Of a stretch of DNA of 47,295 nucleotides, positions 28,442 to 40,620 are shown one piece after another. The notes under the pieces are model-generated. The model was not told the origin of the DNA, did not search any database, and saw only the letters and a list, made by a program, of their open reading frames with translations. Positions within the stretch are counted from its first letter, which is position 1. Every line of letters begins with the position of its first letter. This DNA comes from a virus. Location of the stretch: IMG/VR virus record IMGVR_UViG_3300047548_000468, positions 1-47,295 of that record; one strand, 5' to 3'. Position numbers and translations under genes: made by a program.

Positions 28442-28513
28442 TCCTCCTTAGCTCAGAGGCAGAGCAGAGAGCTGTTAACTCTAAGGTCCCTGGTTCGATC
28501 CCAGGAGGGGGAG
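28442..28513 (+). tRNA. tRNA-Asn(GTT)
   Basis: A full cloverleaf of 72 nt. Acceptor TCCTCCT pairs with AGGGGGA (one GU), D-stem GCTC/GAGC, anticodon loop CTGTTAA, T-arm CCTGG-TTCGATC-CCAGG. The outermost anticodon-stem pair (27-43) is G-A. CCA is not encoded. First tRNA after a consensus promoter at 28384-28412. Confidence 0.93.
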
Positions 28514-28517
28514 CGAG

Positions 28518-28564
28518 TGATAACTTGGATGCTCCAGTAGCTACCCAACTTGCAAGAGTTATCA
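28518..28564 (+). other. Spacer hairpin between tRNA-Asn and tRNA-Asp
   Basis: GATAAC (28519-28524) pairs with GTTATC (28558-28563), continued by TTG/CAA across a two-base bulge. The sequence does not fold as a tRNA. It may be a processing signal in the tRNA precursor. Confidence 0.45.
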
Positions 28565-28570
28565 TTCTTT

Positions 28571-28646
28571 GGTCCTGTAGAGCAGCGGAGTGCTCGCTAC
28601 CCTGTCACGGTAGAGGTCGTGGGTTCAAATCCCATCAGGATCGCCA
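28571..28646 (+). tRNA. tRNA-Asp(GTC)
   Basis: Cloverleaf with acceptor GGTCCTG/CAGGATC (one GU), D-stem GAGC/GCTC, anticodon arm CTACC-CTGTCAC-GGTAG, T-arm GTGGG-TTCAAAT-CCCAT, discriminator G. The 3' CCA is encoded (28644-28646). Confidence 0.95.
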
Positions 28647-28704
28647 TACACCTTGTTAGGTGTAGAGGTCCCTTGTGGATCACCCTAGTCGAAAGGCTAG
28701 GTGT
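28647..28704 (+). other. Two spacer hairpins between tRNA-Asp and tRNA-Thr
   Basis: TACACCT-TGTT-AGGTGTA (28647-28664) is a perfect 7-bp stem directly after the CCA of tRNA-Asp. CACCCTAG/CTAGGTG (28681-28703) forms a second stem with one bulged C. They may guide processing of the tRNA precursor. Confidence 0.5.
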
Positions 28705-28706
28705 TT

Positions 28707-28779
28707 GCCGCCTTAGCTCATTTGGTAGAGCAGGTCCTTTGTAACGATCAGGTGCTCGGTTCGAATCCGAGAGGTGGCT
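28707..28779 (+). tRNA. tRNA-Thr(TGT)
   Basis: 73 nt with acceptor GCCGCCT/AGGTGGC (one GU), D-stem GCTC/GAGC, anticodon loop TTTGTAA, T-arm CTCGG-TTCGAAT-CCGAG. The pair closing the anticodon loop is C-C, a mismatch. CCA is not encoded. Confidence 0.9.
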
Positions 28780-28780
28780 C

Positions 28781-28867
28781 GGAAATATGGCTGAGTGGTC
28801 TAAAGCACGTCACTGCTAATGACGAGTAGGGTAAAATCTACCGTAGGTTCGAATCCTACTATTTCCG
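28781..28867 (+). tRNA. tRNA-Ser(GCT)
   Basis: 87 nt with the long variable arm of class II tRNAs. Acceptor GGAAATA/TATTTCC, anticodon arm CGTCA-CTGCTAA-TGACG, T-arm GTAGG-TTCGAAT-CCTAC, discriminator G. Reads AGC/AGU codons. Confidence 0.94.
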
Positions 28868-28868
28868 C

Positions 28869-28948
28869 TCCGTGAGTGCTGGGACACACAGGGGTCTGTA
28901 AAATCCCTCCCTCTGGGTAGCTGAGTTCGATTCTCAGGCACGGAACCA
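28869..28948 (+). tRNA. tRNA-Tyr(GTA) with short D-arm
   Basis: Class II tRNA with acceptor TCCGTGA/GCACGGA (the innermost pair is A-G), anticodon arm GGGGT-CTGTAAA-ATCCC, variable arm with stem CCC/GGG, T-arm CTGAG-TTCGATT-CTCAG, and encoded CCA (28946-28948). Only 15 nt lie between acceptor and anticodon stem, so the D-arm is reduced to about 3 bp. It may be functional but is atypical. Confidence 0.82.
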
Positions 28949-28951
28949 CCT

Positions 28952-29024
28952 GTCCCTCTAGCTCAGTTGGTAGAGCAACAGACTTTTAATCTGTGGGTCC
29001 ACAGTTCGATCCTGTGGGGGGACA
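28952..29024 (+). tRNA. tRNA-Lys(TTT)
   Basis: 73 nt. Acceptor GTCCCTC/GGGGGAC, D-stem GCTC/GAGC, anticodon arm ACAGA-CTTTTAA-TCTGT, T-arm CACAG-TTCGATC-CTGTG, discriminator A. Last tRNA of the first cluster. Confidence 0.95.
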
Positions 29025-29034
29025 CAAACAATCC

Positions 29035-35499: not shown

Positions 35500-36337
35500 T
35501 TATCTGCTCCATTATTTTATTTGCAAAATCTCTCTTATATTTAATCCACCAACAAACAGCTCTGTGTAAATTTGCTGGGTAGTCATTATTAAGACTGTCA
35601 ACTATTGATTGTAATTTATTCCAGTCGTCAGTCTGTACCACAGGCATAGTTTCAAATAGCAGTTCCCAGAAACCATAGTTCTCTCCAATACTACTAACAG
35701 AGTCTGCTATTGGCAAACACAACATTTCTAGTGCCTCATAAAATCTAAAAGAGTCTATCGTAGCGGCTCCAGCAGGTGATGGGGCATATTTTGCAAGAAA
35801 TAGTTTTTGATAATACTCTTTAGGATCATCACCTTTTGCAAATCCTTTAGTAAGGTTATACTTGGCATCTTTAATATTTACAATAGACTCTGCTAGTTGA
35901 GTCCTACGTTGATGCGTAATCTGTCCAGCAAAATAAACATCGTACTTTTTAGTTGAATATTCTGGCTTAAGATCGTGAATGTGTATTGGAGCACCAGTTG
36001 GAAGCTTGTGGTATTGGCTATGTCTTGGATATGGGTACTGAATCCATATAGTTATGTTGTTGTGTAATATATTGTCAACCCTAAGTCTCCCAACTTCGTC
36101 TGCAGTGACAAATAAAACAACACGATCAATTTTAGACAACTCTTTGGATAGTTTGTCTTCTTGTCCAGACCACTCTGCTCCAGGCACAACAACAAACGCA
36201 CGTTCATCTTTTGGTAAAGATCTAGACTGAACAACTTCTATTTTCTTTTTATTAAATGCTTCAGATAAAAAGCCAAAGTCCCACTTGTCATTTGAGAATC
36301 CGTGATTACCTAAGCTTAAACAGTACGCTTTCATCAT
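35489..36337 (-). CDS. Exostosin-like glycosyltransferase
   Basis: 282 residues. YDVYFAGQITHQRRTQLA and SPAGAATIDSFRFYEALEMLCLPI match the conserved core of exostosin (GT47-type) domains: a strand, then a basic loop, then the S-R-F-x-E-A-L element. The remainder resembles a GT-B fold. ATGA overlap with the gene upstream. It belongs to the reverse glycosyltransferase cassette. Confidence 0.7.
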   Translation of the reverse strand: MMKAYCLSLGNHGFSNDKWDFGFLSEAFNKKKIEVVQSRSLPKDERAFVVVPGAEWSGQEDKLSKELSKIDRVVLFVTADEVGRLRVDNILHNNITIWIQYPYPRHSQYHKLPTGAPIHIHDLKPEYSTKKYDVYFAGQITHQRRTQLAESIVNIKDAKYNLTKGFAKGDDPKEYYQKLFLAKYAPSPAGAATIDSFRFYEALEMLCLPIADSVSSIGENYGFWELLFETMPVVQTDDWNKLQSIVDSLNNDYPANLHRAVCWWIKYKRDFANKIMEQINEH

Positions 36338-37284
36338 AATTTAAGTTCTTTCAGGATTGTATCCCACCTGTGGACATAAGTGTGTTCTGCTTTAGCACGT
36401 TCGTGTCCAGCTCTACGAATAGCTTCACGCTCTTCGTCGTGCTCAAGATAATAATCAATCTTATTTTTTAAATCTTTAAGGTCTCCGTGCTCATAAAAAA
36501 CAATCTCTTTTTTGTCTTCAAAGAAAGCATCGAGCCCAAGAATGTTGGGGTAGATTGTAAAGCCACCACGACCAGTAGACTCAAACAATCTATCTGAAGA
36601 ATAGTAGGGATAGCTAAAGTTAATGTTAAGTGTGTCACCAATTGCAATCTTGCTGCGAGCATAGATTCTATTTAAATTATCGCCTCGTATAGTACCTGTG
36701 TCTCCGTCTCCTCCAACGTGCAAGAATCTAGTTCCGTATGTCTCACGCAAAAAGTTTACTAATTGTGGACGGTATGGATACTCAGGGTGATAGCCCTTGC
36801 TGCCAACAAAAATAACATCATAATCAAATGTGCCGTCATAATCTGGATGAATATAACACTCCTGACCGTAGACTCCAGCAGGTAAAAAATGCCCTCTGAC
36901 CGCAGTGTTTTCATTAAACCAATCAGCCATAAGCTTGTCGGTTGCAAAGAAGTGACCAATATTTTTATAGAAAGGATCGTTCTCAAGATCGTCCTGTCTT
37001 CTTAGTCCAAACCAAAGATCAAGGTGGTAAGTCATTGTAGGAATGCCAGCATACTTTAGTTCTTTAAGAATATCAATGCGGTGAGATCCTTTAGTGATCC
37101 ATCCGTGAGTATGCACCCACACAAAAAGATCTGACTGAAGAGCAGCACCGAGAATTTTACCAGCATTCATTTCGCTTTCTTGCAAACGCACAACTCTATG
37201 CCCAAGCTGCTCTAGTGACTTTGCGTGATGATTCTCACTGCTAAATGGAACTCTAAAGTTTCCTAAAAATGTAATTGTTGCCAA
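36334..37284 (-). CDS. CgeB-like glycosyltransferase
   Basis: 316 residues. FLHVGGDGDTGT, IYARSKIAIGDTLNI and SDRLFESTGRGGFTIYPN are typical of CgeB / DUF3880-type glycosyltransferases with the Glyco_trans_1_2 region. It is the first gene of the reverse operon and starts at TTG 37284, after GAGGG. TGGTAAAAT at 37310-37318 (reverse) is the likely promoter. Confidence 0.75.
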   Translation of the reverse strand: MATITFLGNFRVPFSSENHHAKSLEQLGHRVVRLQESEMNAGKILGAALQSDLFVWVHTHGWITKGSHRIDILKELKYAGIPTMTYHLDLWFGLRRQDDLENDPFYKNIGHFFATDKLMADWFNENTAVRGHFLPAGVYGQECYIHPDYDGTFDYDVIFVGSKGYHPEYPYRPQLVNFLRETYGTRFLHVGGDGDTGTIRGDNLNRIYARSKIAIGDTLNINFSYPYYSSDRLFESTGRGGFTIYPNILGLDAFFEDKKEIVFYEHGDLKDLKNKIDYYLEHDEEREAIRRAGHERAKAEHTYVHRWDTILKELKL

Positions 37285-37309
37285 GTTACCCTCATTCTCT
37301 TATGTAATA

Positions 37310-37318
37310 ATTTTACCA
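37310..37318 (-). promoter_or_regulatory. Promoter of the reverse glycosyltransferase operon
   Basis: Reverse-strand TGG-TAAAAT. The leader to TTG 37284 is about 19 nt with GAGGG. The -35 is weak. Confidence 0.5.
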
Positions 37319-37328
37319 TATTGTGTTG

Positions 37329-37334
37329 TATACT
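37329..37334 (+). promoter_or_regulatory. -10 box of the candidate RNA
   Basis: TATACT; six bases later, 37341 is the first base of the 11-bp stem. Confidence 0.5.
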
Positions 37335-37340
37335 ATAAGT

Positions 37341-37433
37341 GTCCCTCACACTATCTTAGGATGGACTAGTTACCCAAATGATAAGACCGTGGCTAACTGC
37401 AGCGGATTTCGGTGTGAGGGACTTCAACTTTTT
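37341..37433 (+). ncRNA. Candidate structured RNA, unrecognised class
   Basis: Arms GTCCCTCACAC (37341-37351) and GTGTGAGGGAC (37412-37422) give a perfect 11-bp closing stem. Inside, TCTTA (37354-37358) pairs with TAAGA (37382-37386). CCG/CGG (37387-37389, 37403-37405) forms a second hairpin. The loops can pair as AGTTA (37368-37372) with TAACT (37394-37398). A TATACT box ends six bases before the first base of the stem and a short T-run (37429-37433) follows it. Size is like a tRNA but no T-arm consensus exists. Confidence 0.55.
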
Positions 37434-37434
37434 G

Positions 37435-37443
37435 TGATATACT
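37435..37443 (+). promoter_or_regulatory. Extended -10 promoter, leaderless gene 37450
   Basis: TGA-TATACT and a six-base spacer put +1 on ATG 37450. Confidence 0.6.
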
Positions 37444-37449
37444 GGTGCT

Positions 37450-38574
37450 ATGCCATATCACGTTGGAGAAAAAGGGTCTTACGGTTGCTCAGGCTACCCA
37501 GCCGTTAAAGACGACGGAACAGTAATGGGTTGCCACGACACAGCTGAAGAAGCTGCTAATCAAATTTATGCAATCAATCAGTCAGAGGGAAACATTGACT
37601 CAAAGTCACGTCACTCTGGGATGGATGATGAAGAAAACGAACGAATGAGGGGTCGTGAAAGAATGTACAAAGATAATCATATCAAAGAGGGCGACTATGT
37701 AATGGGAATGACCACAGAGGGTATGGTCCACGGACGTGTCGAACACATAATGTGGGAAGGTGGAACTCTTGGAGAGCCAGGCACAGAGTATGCCATAGAG
37801 TCTATGCCACCAGAAAACCCAGCAATGTCTGTCAGAGTTTTTGAAGAAGAGGAAGACGGTATGTGGGAGGAGACCGCATACAGTATCGGTATGATGTACC
37901 AAGATGCTACACGACTTGACGAGCTTCAGGGTCACTCTATGAGCCAAGAAGATGAAGAAATGGAAATGATGTTTAAGGCAGAAACTTTTTCTCCAACAAG
38001 CGGTATGAAGGCTGCTGCTCGTCGTGCTCTTAAGTGGAAAGAAGATGGAAAGGCTACAGGTGCAGGTACTCCAGTCGGTTGGGGTAGGGCATCGGATATT
38101 GTAGCAGGACGTTCAATGTCTCTCAGTGTAGTCAGACGTATGTATTCTTTCTTCTCACGTCACGAGGTAGACAAGAAGGGTAAAGACTTCTACAACACTA
38201 GCAATCCAAGCAATGGTCGCATTATGTGGGATGCTTGGGGTGGAGATGCAGGTTTTTCTTGGTCAAGAGGCATTGTTAACCGAATGAAGGACAAGGCACT
38301 CTTTGCTGATTTTGGTAAGGACTACACTAAGTCTGAAAGAATGGTAGTTAAAGCAATCGGTGTTGGCTCTATGGTTAGCTGGAATTCTTCTGGCGGTAGG
38401 GCAACAGGCAAGATTACAAGAATTATTCGTAATGGATCGTACAACGTTCCTGGCACAGAAGTGACTGTCAATGGCACTCCAGACAACCCAGCTGCTGTCA
38501 TTCGTTTGTATCGTGACGGTAAGCCAACAGATACGATTGTTGCACACCGTATGGACACACTCAGAGCATCCTAG
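37450..38574 (+). CDS. Double TUDOR-like (HVA1-type) structural-region protein
   Basis: 374 residues, mosaic. The N-terminus (GCSGYPAVKDDGTVMGCHDT) is a module found in actinophage capsid-region proteins. Two TUDOR-like repeats follow, one near 75-160 (GDYVMGMTTEGMVHGRVEHI) and one near 305-370 (GSMVSWNSSGGRATGKITRI). Between them lies a Lys/Arg-rich helical module (TSGMKAAARRALKWKEDGKA, GRIMWDAWGGDAGFSWSR) also known from phage prohead-protease proteins. A protease active site is not visible. A leaderless start fits TGATATACT ending at 37443. A DNA- or scaffold-binding role is inferred. Confidence 0.65.
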   Translation: MPYHVGEKGSYGCSGYPAVKDDGTVMGCHDTAEEAANQIYAINQSEGNIDSKSRHSGMDDEENERMRGRERMYKDNHIKEGDYVMGMTTEGMVHGRVEHIMWEGGTLGEPGTEYAIESMPPENPAMSVRVFEEEEDGMWEETAYSIGMMYQDATRLDELQGHSMSQEDEEMEMMFKAETFSPTSGMKAAARRALKWKEDGKATGAGTPVGWGRASDIVAGRSMSLSVVRRMYSFFSRHEVDKKGKDFYNTSNPSNGRIMWDAWGGDAGFSWSRGIVNRMKDKALFADFGKDYTKSERMVVKAIGVGSMVSWNSSGGRATGKITRIIRNGSYNVPGTEVTVNGTPDNPAAVIRLYRDGKPTDTIVAHRMDTLRAS

Positions 38575-38605
38575 ACTTGACAATAGTCTGTTGTTACTGT
38601 AAACT
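38573..38605 (+). promoter_or_regulatory. Promoter with palindrome over the -35
   Basis: TTGACA (38577-38582), 17 bp, TAAACT (38600-38605). AGACT (38573-38577) and AGTCT (38585-38589) form an inverted repeat around the -35, a possible operator. Drives the membrane protein, groES and thyX. Confidence 0.7.
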
Positions 38606-38637
38606 ATACATATACAACTAACGCATTAGGAGAGACA

Positions 38638-38814
38638 ATGCATACGGATGAACTACTTGAGGTGATGTTCGGTACTGAACACGTTATTGCAGAAATGTTC
38701 TGGAATACTGTTTGGTTTGGCATTGCTTTTTTATTTGGAAGAATTATTGCATTCCGCAAGGTACACAAGTACATTGACGAGAAGCACGGAGTTACTCACG
38801 AGGAAGGATACTAA
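38638..38814 (+). CDS. Small single-pass membrane protein
   Basis: 58 residues with one transmembrane segment (WNTVWFGIAFLFGRIIAF, about 22-39) and a charged C-terminus (RKVHKYIDEKHG). A TTGACA promoter lies upstream and TTAGGAGAG gives the ribosome site. It is coupled to the GroES gene by TAATG. Function unknown; the pairing suggests that both are needed at the same stage. Confidence 0.6.
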   Translation: MHTDELLEVMFGTEHVIAEMFWNTVWFGIAFLFGRIIAFRKVHKYIDEKHGVTHEEGY

Positions 38815-39104
38815 TGATTCAGCCACTTTATGACAAAATTGTTCTAGATCCTATCAAGGATGAACAGGTTACATCTTCAGGATTTATTATTGCTGGAGAT
38901 AGGGAAAAGCCACAAGAAGCTATTGTAGTTGCAGTGGGGACTGGTGTAACAACATCAAATGGTGTACACGTTGAGATCCCACTTGAGGTAGGCAATAAGG
39001 TTTTGTTTGCTAAGTACAGCGGCACTGAGGTACGACACGACAACAAAGACTATATTGTTATCTCATACAACGACATCTTGGCGGTAATTGATGAACAAGA
39101 TTAA
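38814..39104 (+). CDS. groES: GroES-like co-chaperonin
   Basis: 96 residues with the Cpn10 plan: IQPLYDKIVLDPI, mobile loop (DEQVTSSGFIIAGDREKPQEA), then GVGNK-type and VLFAKYSGTEV, ending DYIVISYNDILAVI. Phage co-chaperonins (T4 gp31 is the known case) adapt host GroEL to fold the phage capsid protein, which is plausible here. No GroEL gene is in the window. It overlaps thyX. Confidence 0.9.
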   Translation: MIQPLYDKIVLDPIKDEQVTSSGFIIAGDREKPQEAIVVAVGTGVTTSNGVHVEIPLEVGNKVLFAKYSGTEVRHDNKDYIVISYNDILAVIDEQD

Positions 39105-39780
39105 TGTACTAGATAAGGGCTATGTACGTCTTGTAGATGTATTAGGAAATGATCTTTCTGTTGTGAATGCAGCACGAGTCTCGTATGATAAAGAGACTGA
39201 AGAGTTTGGTGATCGTGATGAAAAGCTCATCCAGTTTCTCATCCGTGAAGGACACACAAGCCCATTCCGTCACGCTGCCCTGACATTTGAAGTCTATGCC
39301 CCACTTTTTGTTGCACGTCAGTGGTGGAAGTATGCAGTAGCATCTACCCACGTAGATGATCAAAATGGCTGGAATGAGTCGTCACGCCGTTACATTACTG
39401 AGGATGAAGAGTTTTATGTTCCAAGAAACAACGAGTGGCGTAGCAAGCCTGAGAATAGCAAGCAGGGTAGTGGAGAGCCAGTAGACAAAAAGACTGGTGA
39501 CTACTTCTATCACGAACTTTTGCAAACAATTGATGATGGTGTACAGTTTTACCACGAAGCTATGGATGCAGGGATTGCACCAGAACTTGCACGTCTCTTT
39601 CTTCCAGCATATGCTATGTATGTCCGCTGGCGTTGGACGGTATCTCTGCAGGGAGTACTTACTTTCCTTGAACAGCGTATGGAGCACGATGCACAATGGG
39701 AGATACAGCAGTATGCTTTTGTTGTTAAAGATCTAGCACACGGTGCGTTCCCAGAAACCTTTAAGGCATTGCACCAGTAA
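39091..39780 (+). CDS. thyX: Flavin-dependent thymidylate synthase ThyX
   Basis: 229 residues. The fold and order of ThyX are present: GHTSPFRHAALTFEV, APLFVARQW, NESSRRY, ARLFLPAYAMYVRWRWT, LTFLEQRM. It makes dTMP from dUMP using FADH2 and methylene-tetrahydrofolate. The usual RHR of the ThyX motif reads W-K-Y here (near 79-81), with a longer insertion before NESSRRY. ATG 39091 is used; the TTG just before it is weaker. It supplies dTMP together with the dCMP deaminase at 31419. Confidence 0.9.
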   Translation: MNKINVLDKGYVRLVDVLGNDLSVVNAARVSYDKETEEFGDRDEKLIQFLIREGHTSPFRHAALTFEVYAPLFVARQWWKYAVASTHVDDQNGWNESSRRYITEDEEFYVPRNNEWRSKPENSKQGSGEPVDKKTGDYFYHELLQTIDDGVQFYHEAMDAGIAPELARLFLPAYAMYVRWRWTVSLQGVLTFLEQRMEHDAQWEIQQYAFVVKDLAHGAFPETFKALHQ

Positions 39781-39785
39781 GGATT

Positions 39786-39862
39786 GGGGCAGTAGCATAA
39801 CTGGTAAATGCAATACTCTTATAAGGTATCGATAGTGGGTTCAAGTCCCACCTGCCCTACCA
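39786..39862 (+). tRNA. tRNA-Ile(TAT)
   Basis: Cloverleaf with acceptor GGGGCAG/CTGCCCT (one GU), D-stem GCAT/ATGC, anticodon arm ATACT-CTTATAA-GGTAT, T-arm GTGGG-TTCAAGT-CCCAC, discriminator A and encoded CCA (39860-39862). The anticodon TAT reads ATA directly; most bacteria use lysidine-modified CAT instead. Confidence 0.93.
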
Positions 39863-39863
39863 C

Positions 39864-39936
39864 GCCCCTGTAGCTCAGAGGATAGAGCGTCGGACTTCTA
39901 ATCCGTGCGTCGCAGGTTCGAATCCTGTCAGGGGTG
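39864..39936 (+). tRNA. tRNA-Arg(TCT)
   Basis: Acceptor GCCCCTG/CAGGGGT (one GU), D-stem GCTC/GAGC, anticodon arm TCGGA-CTTCTAA-TCCGT, T-arm GCAGG-TTCGAAT-CCTGT, discriminator G. It reads AGA/AGG, abundant in this phage. Its 3' end overlaps the reverse gene at 39928. Confidence 0.95.
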
Positions 39937-40620
39937 CTCATAAGGAGAAGGGTCGGGAAATAAATCCTTCAGTATAAAGTTAAGTAAGAAGTCGAAGTTA
40001 GAATCGTGGCTAGACAAATAATTTAGATCTTCAGCAACGAGGTCATAGAACTTGCCTTTTAGCTCCGTATTACTATATACTTTGACATCATAAGTTTTTG
40101 TTCCACCAACTTTATAGACATTCCCATATGTTGATCTGTGCAATGTTTTTTCGTTTAGCACTGCAAGAAGTTTTTCTTTATTCATAGGCATAGGAATATG
40201 TAGTTCGTAATCAAGTGGATTAGAAACATTGCGTCTAGCTAGATACTTATATGTTTTGTTAAATAATCTTTGGTATCCATAGTTAGTTTGATTAGACTCT
40301 GCATAGAACTTTAGCACCTCTTGCATAGTCCCTGCATAAAAATATTCAACGCTATCAAGCTTTTTAACCGTAAAGAAGTCATCATTCATTAGCACAAAAT
40401 CATCAGATATTTCTGGGGTATTGCAAATAACACTTAATTGCTTCCAAACATTTTGATGCCCAGTGCCAGTCTGTTCAACATAAATATATTTGCCAGTGTA
40501 CCAATCTGGCTTTCCTCCAACTACCCATATGTTACCTTCTGGTAAATTTTTCAGGGTAGATCTAATTGAGTATCTTAACTCTTCATTATCTCCAGGACGA
40601 CATACATAAACGTAATCCAA
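39928..40620 (-). CDS. Stealth-like / glycosyltransferase-type protein
   Basis: 230 residues. RPGDNEELRYSIRSTLKNLP and WVVGGKPDWY at the start and DDFVLMNDDFFTVK in the middle resemble Stealth-family or capsular-sugar phosphotransferase-like proteins. The start is TTG 40620. The C-terminus overlaps the 3' end of tRNA-Arg in the opposite strand. It may work with the four-gene glycosyltransferase cassette at 33728-37284, though it has its own promoter. Confidence 0.6.
   Translation of the reverse strand: MDYVYVCRPGDNEELRYSIRSTLKNLPEGNIWVVGGKPDWYTGKYIYVEQTGTGHQNVWKQLSVICNTPEISDDFVLMNDDFFTVKKLDSVEYFYAGTMQEVLKFYAESNQTNYGYQRLFNKTYKYLARRNVSNPLDYELHIPMPMNKEKLLAVLNEKTLHRSTYGNVYKVGGTKTYDVKVYSNTELKGKFYDLVAEDLNYLSSHDSNFDFLLNFILKDLFPDPSPYEHP

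Follow-up and report, generated by a model that had tools for sequence, protein, structure and literature searches.

A candidate class of phage small RNAs carrying interrupted antisense of helix 69 of host 23S rRNA

Viral contigs were found to carry a small RNA presenting an interrupted antisense of helix 69 (H69) of the 23S rRNA of their hosts. The complementarity to host 23S rRNA is strongly supported, and it is very likely that the RNA evolved to pair with this rRNA. We consider it fairly probable that such RNAs form a widespread class, encoded by phages that infect at least two phyla of bacteria, and that they evolved interrupted antisense of host 23S helices 69–72 by which the phage halts or redirects the production or the function of host ribosomes; the class would then inhibit ribosomes through a natural RNA, with a host range set by rRNA pairing. 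The RNA described below in detail is located in a stretch of viral DNA of 47,295 nucleotides (IMG/VR record IMGVR_UViG_3300047548_000468, positions 1 to 47,295), which is referred to as the window.

The RNA gene in the window and its family

The features of the gene, in coordinates of the window, are as follows.

37329-37334, + strand: -10 box TATACT, read from the sequence, 6 nt before the first stem base at 37341
37341-37422, + strand: small RNA to the end of the closing stem; fold z = -3.8, homologues with a covarying closing stem
37341-37352, + strand: 5' arm of closing stem P1, GTCCCTCACACT; 12 pairs, all with compensatory changes
37411-37422, + strand: 3' arm of closing stem P1, GGTGTGAGGGAC; the same 12 pairs
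37355-37363, + strand: left arm of antisense element A, CUUAGGAUG; exact complement of actinobacterial 23S 1921-1929 (E. coli numbers), host-matched variant CUUAGGACC
37364-37366, + strand: spacer GAC opposite 23S 1917-1920; the true complement GUUA occurs in 0 of the 106 listed RNAs
37367-37374, + strand: right arm of antisense element A, UAGUUACC, with the AGTTA loop; complement of 23S 1909-1916, which is the helix 69 5' strand and loop
37385-37410, + strand: second module, GACCGTGGCTAACTGCAGCGGATTTC, hairpin 2; its counterpart in other architectures is antisense to 23S ~1944-2012, its own match is not significant
37429-37433, + strand: T-run TTTTT, a weak terminator-like end read from the sequence; 34 of 89 homologues have TTTT after the 3' arm

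An earlier sequence-only reading of this DNA had described a TATACT box that places the transcription start on the first base of a stem, and this arrangement was confirmed. The stem itself, described as a perfect 11-bp helix closing about 60 nt, is present, but its size differs: the two arms form 12 bp, 11 Watson-Crick pairs and one U.G, and enclose 58 nt. The minimum free energy of positions 37341-37433 was -32.6 kcal/mol (z = -3.8), a stability that none of 200 shuffled sequences reached, and the predicted fold is a three-way junction with two hairpins bearing the loops ACUAGUUAC and UAACU. The transcript probably ends at the T-run near 37433. As the earlier reading had noted, this T-run is followed by a separately promoted gene, which starts at 37450 and has its own TATACT at 37438-37443, 6 nt before the ATG; this gene therefore appears to be nearly leaderless, a kind of start that is common in Actinobacteria, and separate from the RNA.

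The RNA is flanked (window 36334-39780) by a minus-strand glycosyltransferase gene on one side and a gene for a Hva1_TUDOR-domain protein on the other, followed by genes for a GroES homologue and ThyX. Some relatives (L011, L014, L016) lack the RNA at the same place, which indicates that it is an accessory element. Eight tRNA genes are present in two clusters (window 28442-29025 and 39786-39937), so that the phage has several translation-related RNAs besides the small RNA.

The view that the RNA resembles no tRNA, riboswitch or ribozyme agreed with the database searches. No Rfam covariance model matched the window RNA above its gathering threshold, the matches obtained at permissive settings were at chance level, and the only RNAs that Rfam and ARAGORN found in the window were tRNAs. 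At twelve other family loci, Rfam likewise returned only tRNAs and no ribozyme. A tRNA, a ribozyme or a known Rfam family was ruled out by these searches.

The first homologues were collected by a protein-neighbour search and an exact core search, and the family pattern CTTAGGATGN{0,4}TAGTTACC matched at least 119 stretches in viral contigs. The matches listed comprise 106 distinct sequences with the core motif, which fall into several architectures and probably include a few chance matches; L108, L162, L174 and L193, for example, lack the anatomy of the unit and look like chance occurrences of the motif. Because the motif itself recruited most homologues, its invariance in these is partly by construction. 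Not more than one copy of the RNA was found per contig in the 18 contigs that were searched whole. The family occurs commonly in metagenomic phages that are relatives of actinobacterial phages. The motif was not found in the isolate phages NootNoot, Mildred21, Myrna, D29, BillNye, Coruscant, Jay2Jay, Mandalore, Phosso and Atu_ph07, and a match in PinkFriday is the ribosome-binding site ahead of a gene start and therefore a chance match.

Compensatory changes in the closing stem, which the sequence-only reading had named as support for the RNA, were observed at 12 of 12 pairs in an alignment of 35 type-1a homologues. Double-sided changes occurred in 60 cells, compared with 22 expected by shuffling, and none of 500 shuffles gave as high a count; the signal was lost when the pairing partners were slid. 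Cells with G.U outnumbered those with A-C (43 vs 9) in this stem, which identifies the + strand as the RNA strand. Of 89 distinct homologues, 77 have a -10-like hexamer ahead of the closing stem, at a distance of 1-8 nt and mostly of 6 nt; at the mirror position on the opposite strand, no homologue has one. Promoter-like hexamers upstream, together with strong terminator hairpins directly 3' of the motif, were also recognized by eye in L106, L109, L143 and L123, and a perfect promoter and a terminator are present in the type 4 RNAs. The covarying stem, the strand signal and the -10 boxes together make it very probable that the element is an RNA gene, with transcription from the + strand in the direction first proposed. 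Its -10 box, covarying stem and strand bias are those of an independent short transcription unit, as expected of a trans-acting sRNA, with a weak terminator in the window.

Two further arrangements were observed among the relatives. In L085, L087, L090, L113, L159, L141, L124 and L130, a reordered version of the RNA, with the second module before the motif or with a longer three-hairpin body, adjoins tRNA genes. In L358, L364, L368, L373 and their relatives, a conserved short hairpin, GTCGGGGGAGACAGCGAC, lies just after a TATAAT-like box upstream of the RNA and is perhaps a 5' extension of the transcript.

Complementarity to 23S rRNA and match to the host phylum

In loop 1, the invariant motif CUUAGGAUG-N(0-4)-UAGUUACC reads as an exact antisense to helix 69 of actinobacterial 23S rRNA, at 1921-1929 and 1909-1916. 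A scan of 84,980 prokaryote species, each represented by one genome, with the motif pattern gave at least 119 rows; among the bacterial matches listed, 119 of 119 were 23S genes, matched on the antisense strand at helix 69 GGTAACTATAACCATCCTAAG, all of them in actinobacterial records by title and all with the spacer GTTA. The spacers of the 106 listed viral RNAs are 0-4 nt long and of 24 kinds, none of them GTTA, and 23S 1917-1920 would therefore not be fully paired with any listed phage RNA.

Substitutions within the motif were compatible with pairing. Among sequences with the common spacer, the tested A was replaced in 47 contigs (28 distinct), in all 47 by G, which keeps a G.U pair opposite U1926. 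These A-to-G forms look like few lineages and thus represent a small number of events. L080 carries an A-to-G change at a second A, and no substitution of the tested G and C in the loop was found in viral contigs.

The complementarity follows the host phylum. Helix 69 has the sequence GGCCGUAACUAUAACGGUCCUAAGG in E. coli and many other bacteria, and the complement of this sequence with a shortened spacer was found in nine viral contigs, as one conserved RNA type of which four distinct sequences were aligned; this proteobacterial-type RNA lacks just the A opposite U1917. The DNA polymerase of L324, which carries the proteobacterial version, is closest to those of Sinorhizobium and Agrobacterium jumbo phages (47-50%), whereas the DnaE-type polymerase of the window is closest to Streptomyces phages (56%), as is the capsid protein of another member with the actinobacterial version (63%). 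A hybrid of the two versions, used as an equal-length control, gave zero matches in viral contigs. The antisense version is thus matched to the host phylum, and the RNAs show the conserved complementarity to a target encoded elsewhere that is expected of trans-acting sRNAs, with host-matched versions and the hybrid absent. The search with the proteobacterial pattern also returned L321, L322, L326, L329, L331 and L333, which lack the unit anatomy and look like chance matches.

In folds of the free RNA, the motif is predicted as a hairpin exposing a AUUAGUUA-type loop in many family members, and in the minimum-energy fold it is partly paired. Cofolding of the RNAs with 23S rRNA gave modest gains of -0.3 to -11 kcal/mol, and zero for L102; the energies favored the matching host in every case with any binding. 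Ranking with RNAduplex was supportive for types 1b and 2, mixed for types 1a and 3, and weak for L102.

Some members extend the antisense beyond the motif. In 15 clusters other than type 1, the best antisense match outside the motif, compared with all 16S and 23S windows, fell on 23S windows starting at 1944-1974, up to 6.3 sd above the spread. Upstream of the motif, L106 contains a near co-linear antisense to 23S ~1950-2012 that was 14.8 sd above dinucleotide shuffles, with no signal on the sense strand, and near co-linear 23S antisense was also detected in L143 (7.3 sd), L109 (6.5 sd) and L197 (4.5 sd). When all 106 listed RNAs were taken together, 7-10-mers antisense to 23S were not enriched outside the motif. 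The 23S antisense match of the second module of the window RNA was not significant, so that the claim for this RNA rests on the 17-nt motif.

Matches to 16S rRNA were also considered. Those at 16S 797-827 originated from the G/C-rich closing stem and were equal in sense and antisense. The proteobacterial-type RNAs L323, L324, L325 and L330 share a conserved CGGCUGCUG that is antisense to the 16S 530 loop over 10-11 nt, a match length not clearly beyond chance for the length of the rRNA; GGAGUCGUGCCC and AAGUGAGC are also conserved in these four RNAs.

Possible action on the ribosome and alternative explanations

From these sequence relations we infer that, inside infected cells, this RNA base-pairs with the 23S rRNA. 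It would be the product of a stand-alone phage sRNA gene, in which a long stem closes an RNA presenting the interrupted antisense of host helix 69, and its most likely mode of action is base pairing in trans with domain IV of the 23S rRNA. The exposed AUUAGUUA-type loop could kiss the H69 loop first: in the proposed first step, the UAGUUAC loop would contact 1910-1916, and in the next step CUUAGGAUG would invade 1921-1929 and open H69, leaving 1917-1920 bulged. Through its interruptions the duplex may escape RNase III, or an enzyme may gain access to 1917-1920.

H69 makes a bridge between the two subunits and is mostly occupied in completed 70S ribosomes, and the segments at 23S ~1950-2012 should be largely buried in finished 50S subunits. 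Because the longer relatives match 23S ~1950-2012, nascent or immature 23S rRNA is favored as the main target, in which case new 50S subunits would be blocked, or H69 made unusable, during infection. Methylation at N3 of position 1915 by RlmH would hinder pairing, and RlmH was not found in the eight actinobacterial genomes tested, with control genomes positive; U1915 would therefore be free to pair in these hosts, and the RNA may also act on mature ribosomes. A synthetic antisense PNA against H69 inhibits the growth of E. coli (Kulik 2017, cited in PMC7038079). This inhibition and the bridge role of H69 make an inhibitory outcome plausible. We infer that the RNA is transcribed during infection and affects the assembly or activity of ribosomes, and lean toward the interpretation that it pairs with domain IV of host 23S rRNA and probably blocks the assembly or use of 50S subunits.

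The earlier reading had proposed instead a self-contained structured RNA in which an internal kissing loop holds hairpins 1 and 2 together, and the window fold, with its three-way junction and 5-nt complementarity, is consistent with it. The two hairpins with complementary loops are indeed in the window fold, but the inner helices are not part of the conserved consensus, as RNAalifold retained the closing stem alone for the 35 type-1a homologues. The AGTTA/TAACT kissing pair failed in the comparison: AGTTA is invariant, but its partner TAACT (UAACU) was seen in 8 of the 89 RNAs with the stem, and these 8 are nearly all closely related to the window. The conservation of AGTTA is explained by its place inside the 17-nt sequence antisense to helix 69, and its likely partner is therefore ribosomal RNA rather than hairpin 2; the loop-bearing motif moreover switches with the host phylum. 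An internal kissing loop is accordingly extremely unlikely, and what stands of the proposed new phage RNA is that it is structured, has a promoter-like box and is absent from Rfam. The very strong conservation of the 17-nt motif could also mark a DNA site that has a relation to the 23S gene and serves a homing endonuclease or recombination, or else an RNA motif bound by protein, with incidental rRNA pairing, and homing endonucleases and introns are known to target this part of 23S genes. Such a site is very unlikely in view of the variable 0-4 nt spacer in the middle of the motif, the covarying stem with its strand-specific G.U pairs and promoters, the occurrence of the two modules in either order, the replacement of the tested A solely by G, the switch of the motif with host phylum, and the antisense that extends past the motif.

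Other explanations accept the pairing and differ in its consequence. The RNA might dock on H69 or shield it without inhibiting the ribosome, for instance for hibernation, for guarding H69/H70 against anti-phage toxins or RNases of the host, or for bringing phage functions to ribosomes. The same complementarity and host match would be expected, and a spacer and interruptions that keep the duplex imperfect would suit reversible docking; occupancy of H69 should, however, disturb the intersubunit bridge, and some members reach segments that are presumably buried in the mature 50S, and we regard this explanation as unlikely. Alternatively, the antisense arms might guide an enzyme that modifies or cuts 23S rRNA at the unpaired 1917-1920 between them. 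These positions are not fully paired in any of the 106 listed RNAs, the proteobacterial version leaves U1917 alone unpaired, the region is naturally modified (Psi1917 and the C1920 modified by TlyA), and TlyA homologues were found in eight of eight hosts tested. Against a guide function, which appears quite improbable, stand the lack of a conserved neighboring gene, of box motifs and of an Rfam guide family, and the interruption may do no more than escape RNase III or facilitate release.

Relation to known systems and implications

The host-matched complementarity to 23S rRNA suggests an unrecorded viral action on ribosomes through RNA, and no precedent for a phage RNA complementary to rRNA was found in Rfam or in the open-access literature searched. 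To our knowledge, no virus has been described that targets the ribosome with an RNA pairing to conserved rRNA. Should the pairing prove real, the RNA would offer a natural tool to inhibit or probe H69 and 50S assembly, a sequence handle to predict the host phylum of a phage, and a mechanism of host takeover that can be tested; antisense antibacterials directed at rRNA would also have a precedent in nature.

Several known systems share some of its properties. The phi29 pRNA is also a phage RNA with a closing stem, a three-way junction and loops able to kiss; it serves DNA packaging by loop-loop pairing between pRNAs, whereas here loop 1 complements rRNA and loop 2 is not conserved. The conserved mutual loop complementarity of the phi29 type was not found (UAACU in 8 of 89 RNAs), nor was an Rfam match. 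Guides of the snoRNA type are likewise small RNAs antisense to rRNA with unpaired target nucleotides between their arms, but the host of the present RNA is bacterial, its arms are contiguous in one loop instead of being split by a stem, it has no known partner proteins, and the window RNA matched no Rfam guide family. Some phage proteins bind to the ribosomes of the host at an early stage of infection (PMC10914614); they similarly accomplish host takeover at the ribosome, and differ in being proteins, not RNA.

The synthetic PNA against H69, as described in PMC7038079 citing Kulik 2017, has the same target helix and the same principle of strand invasion; it is man-made, whereas the phage RNA occurs in nature, is longer, and has both interruptions and a structure. 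The trans-acting antisense sRNAs of phages, such as PreS of lambda, VpdS and SprY (PMC12197685), are similar in being small phage RNAs with their own promoters and antisense elements in loops, with action in trans inferred. Their described targets are mRNAs or another sRNA, and the word rRNA is absent from this 2025 review of phage sRNAs; the target of the family described here would be 23S rRNA, in a sequence matched to the host phylum. The principle would thus be that of antisense pairing, and what would be new, with no precedent found, is 23S rRNA as the target and, through it, a route for a virus to act on ribosomes.
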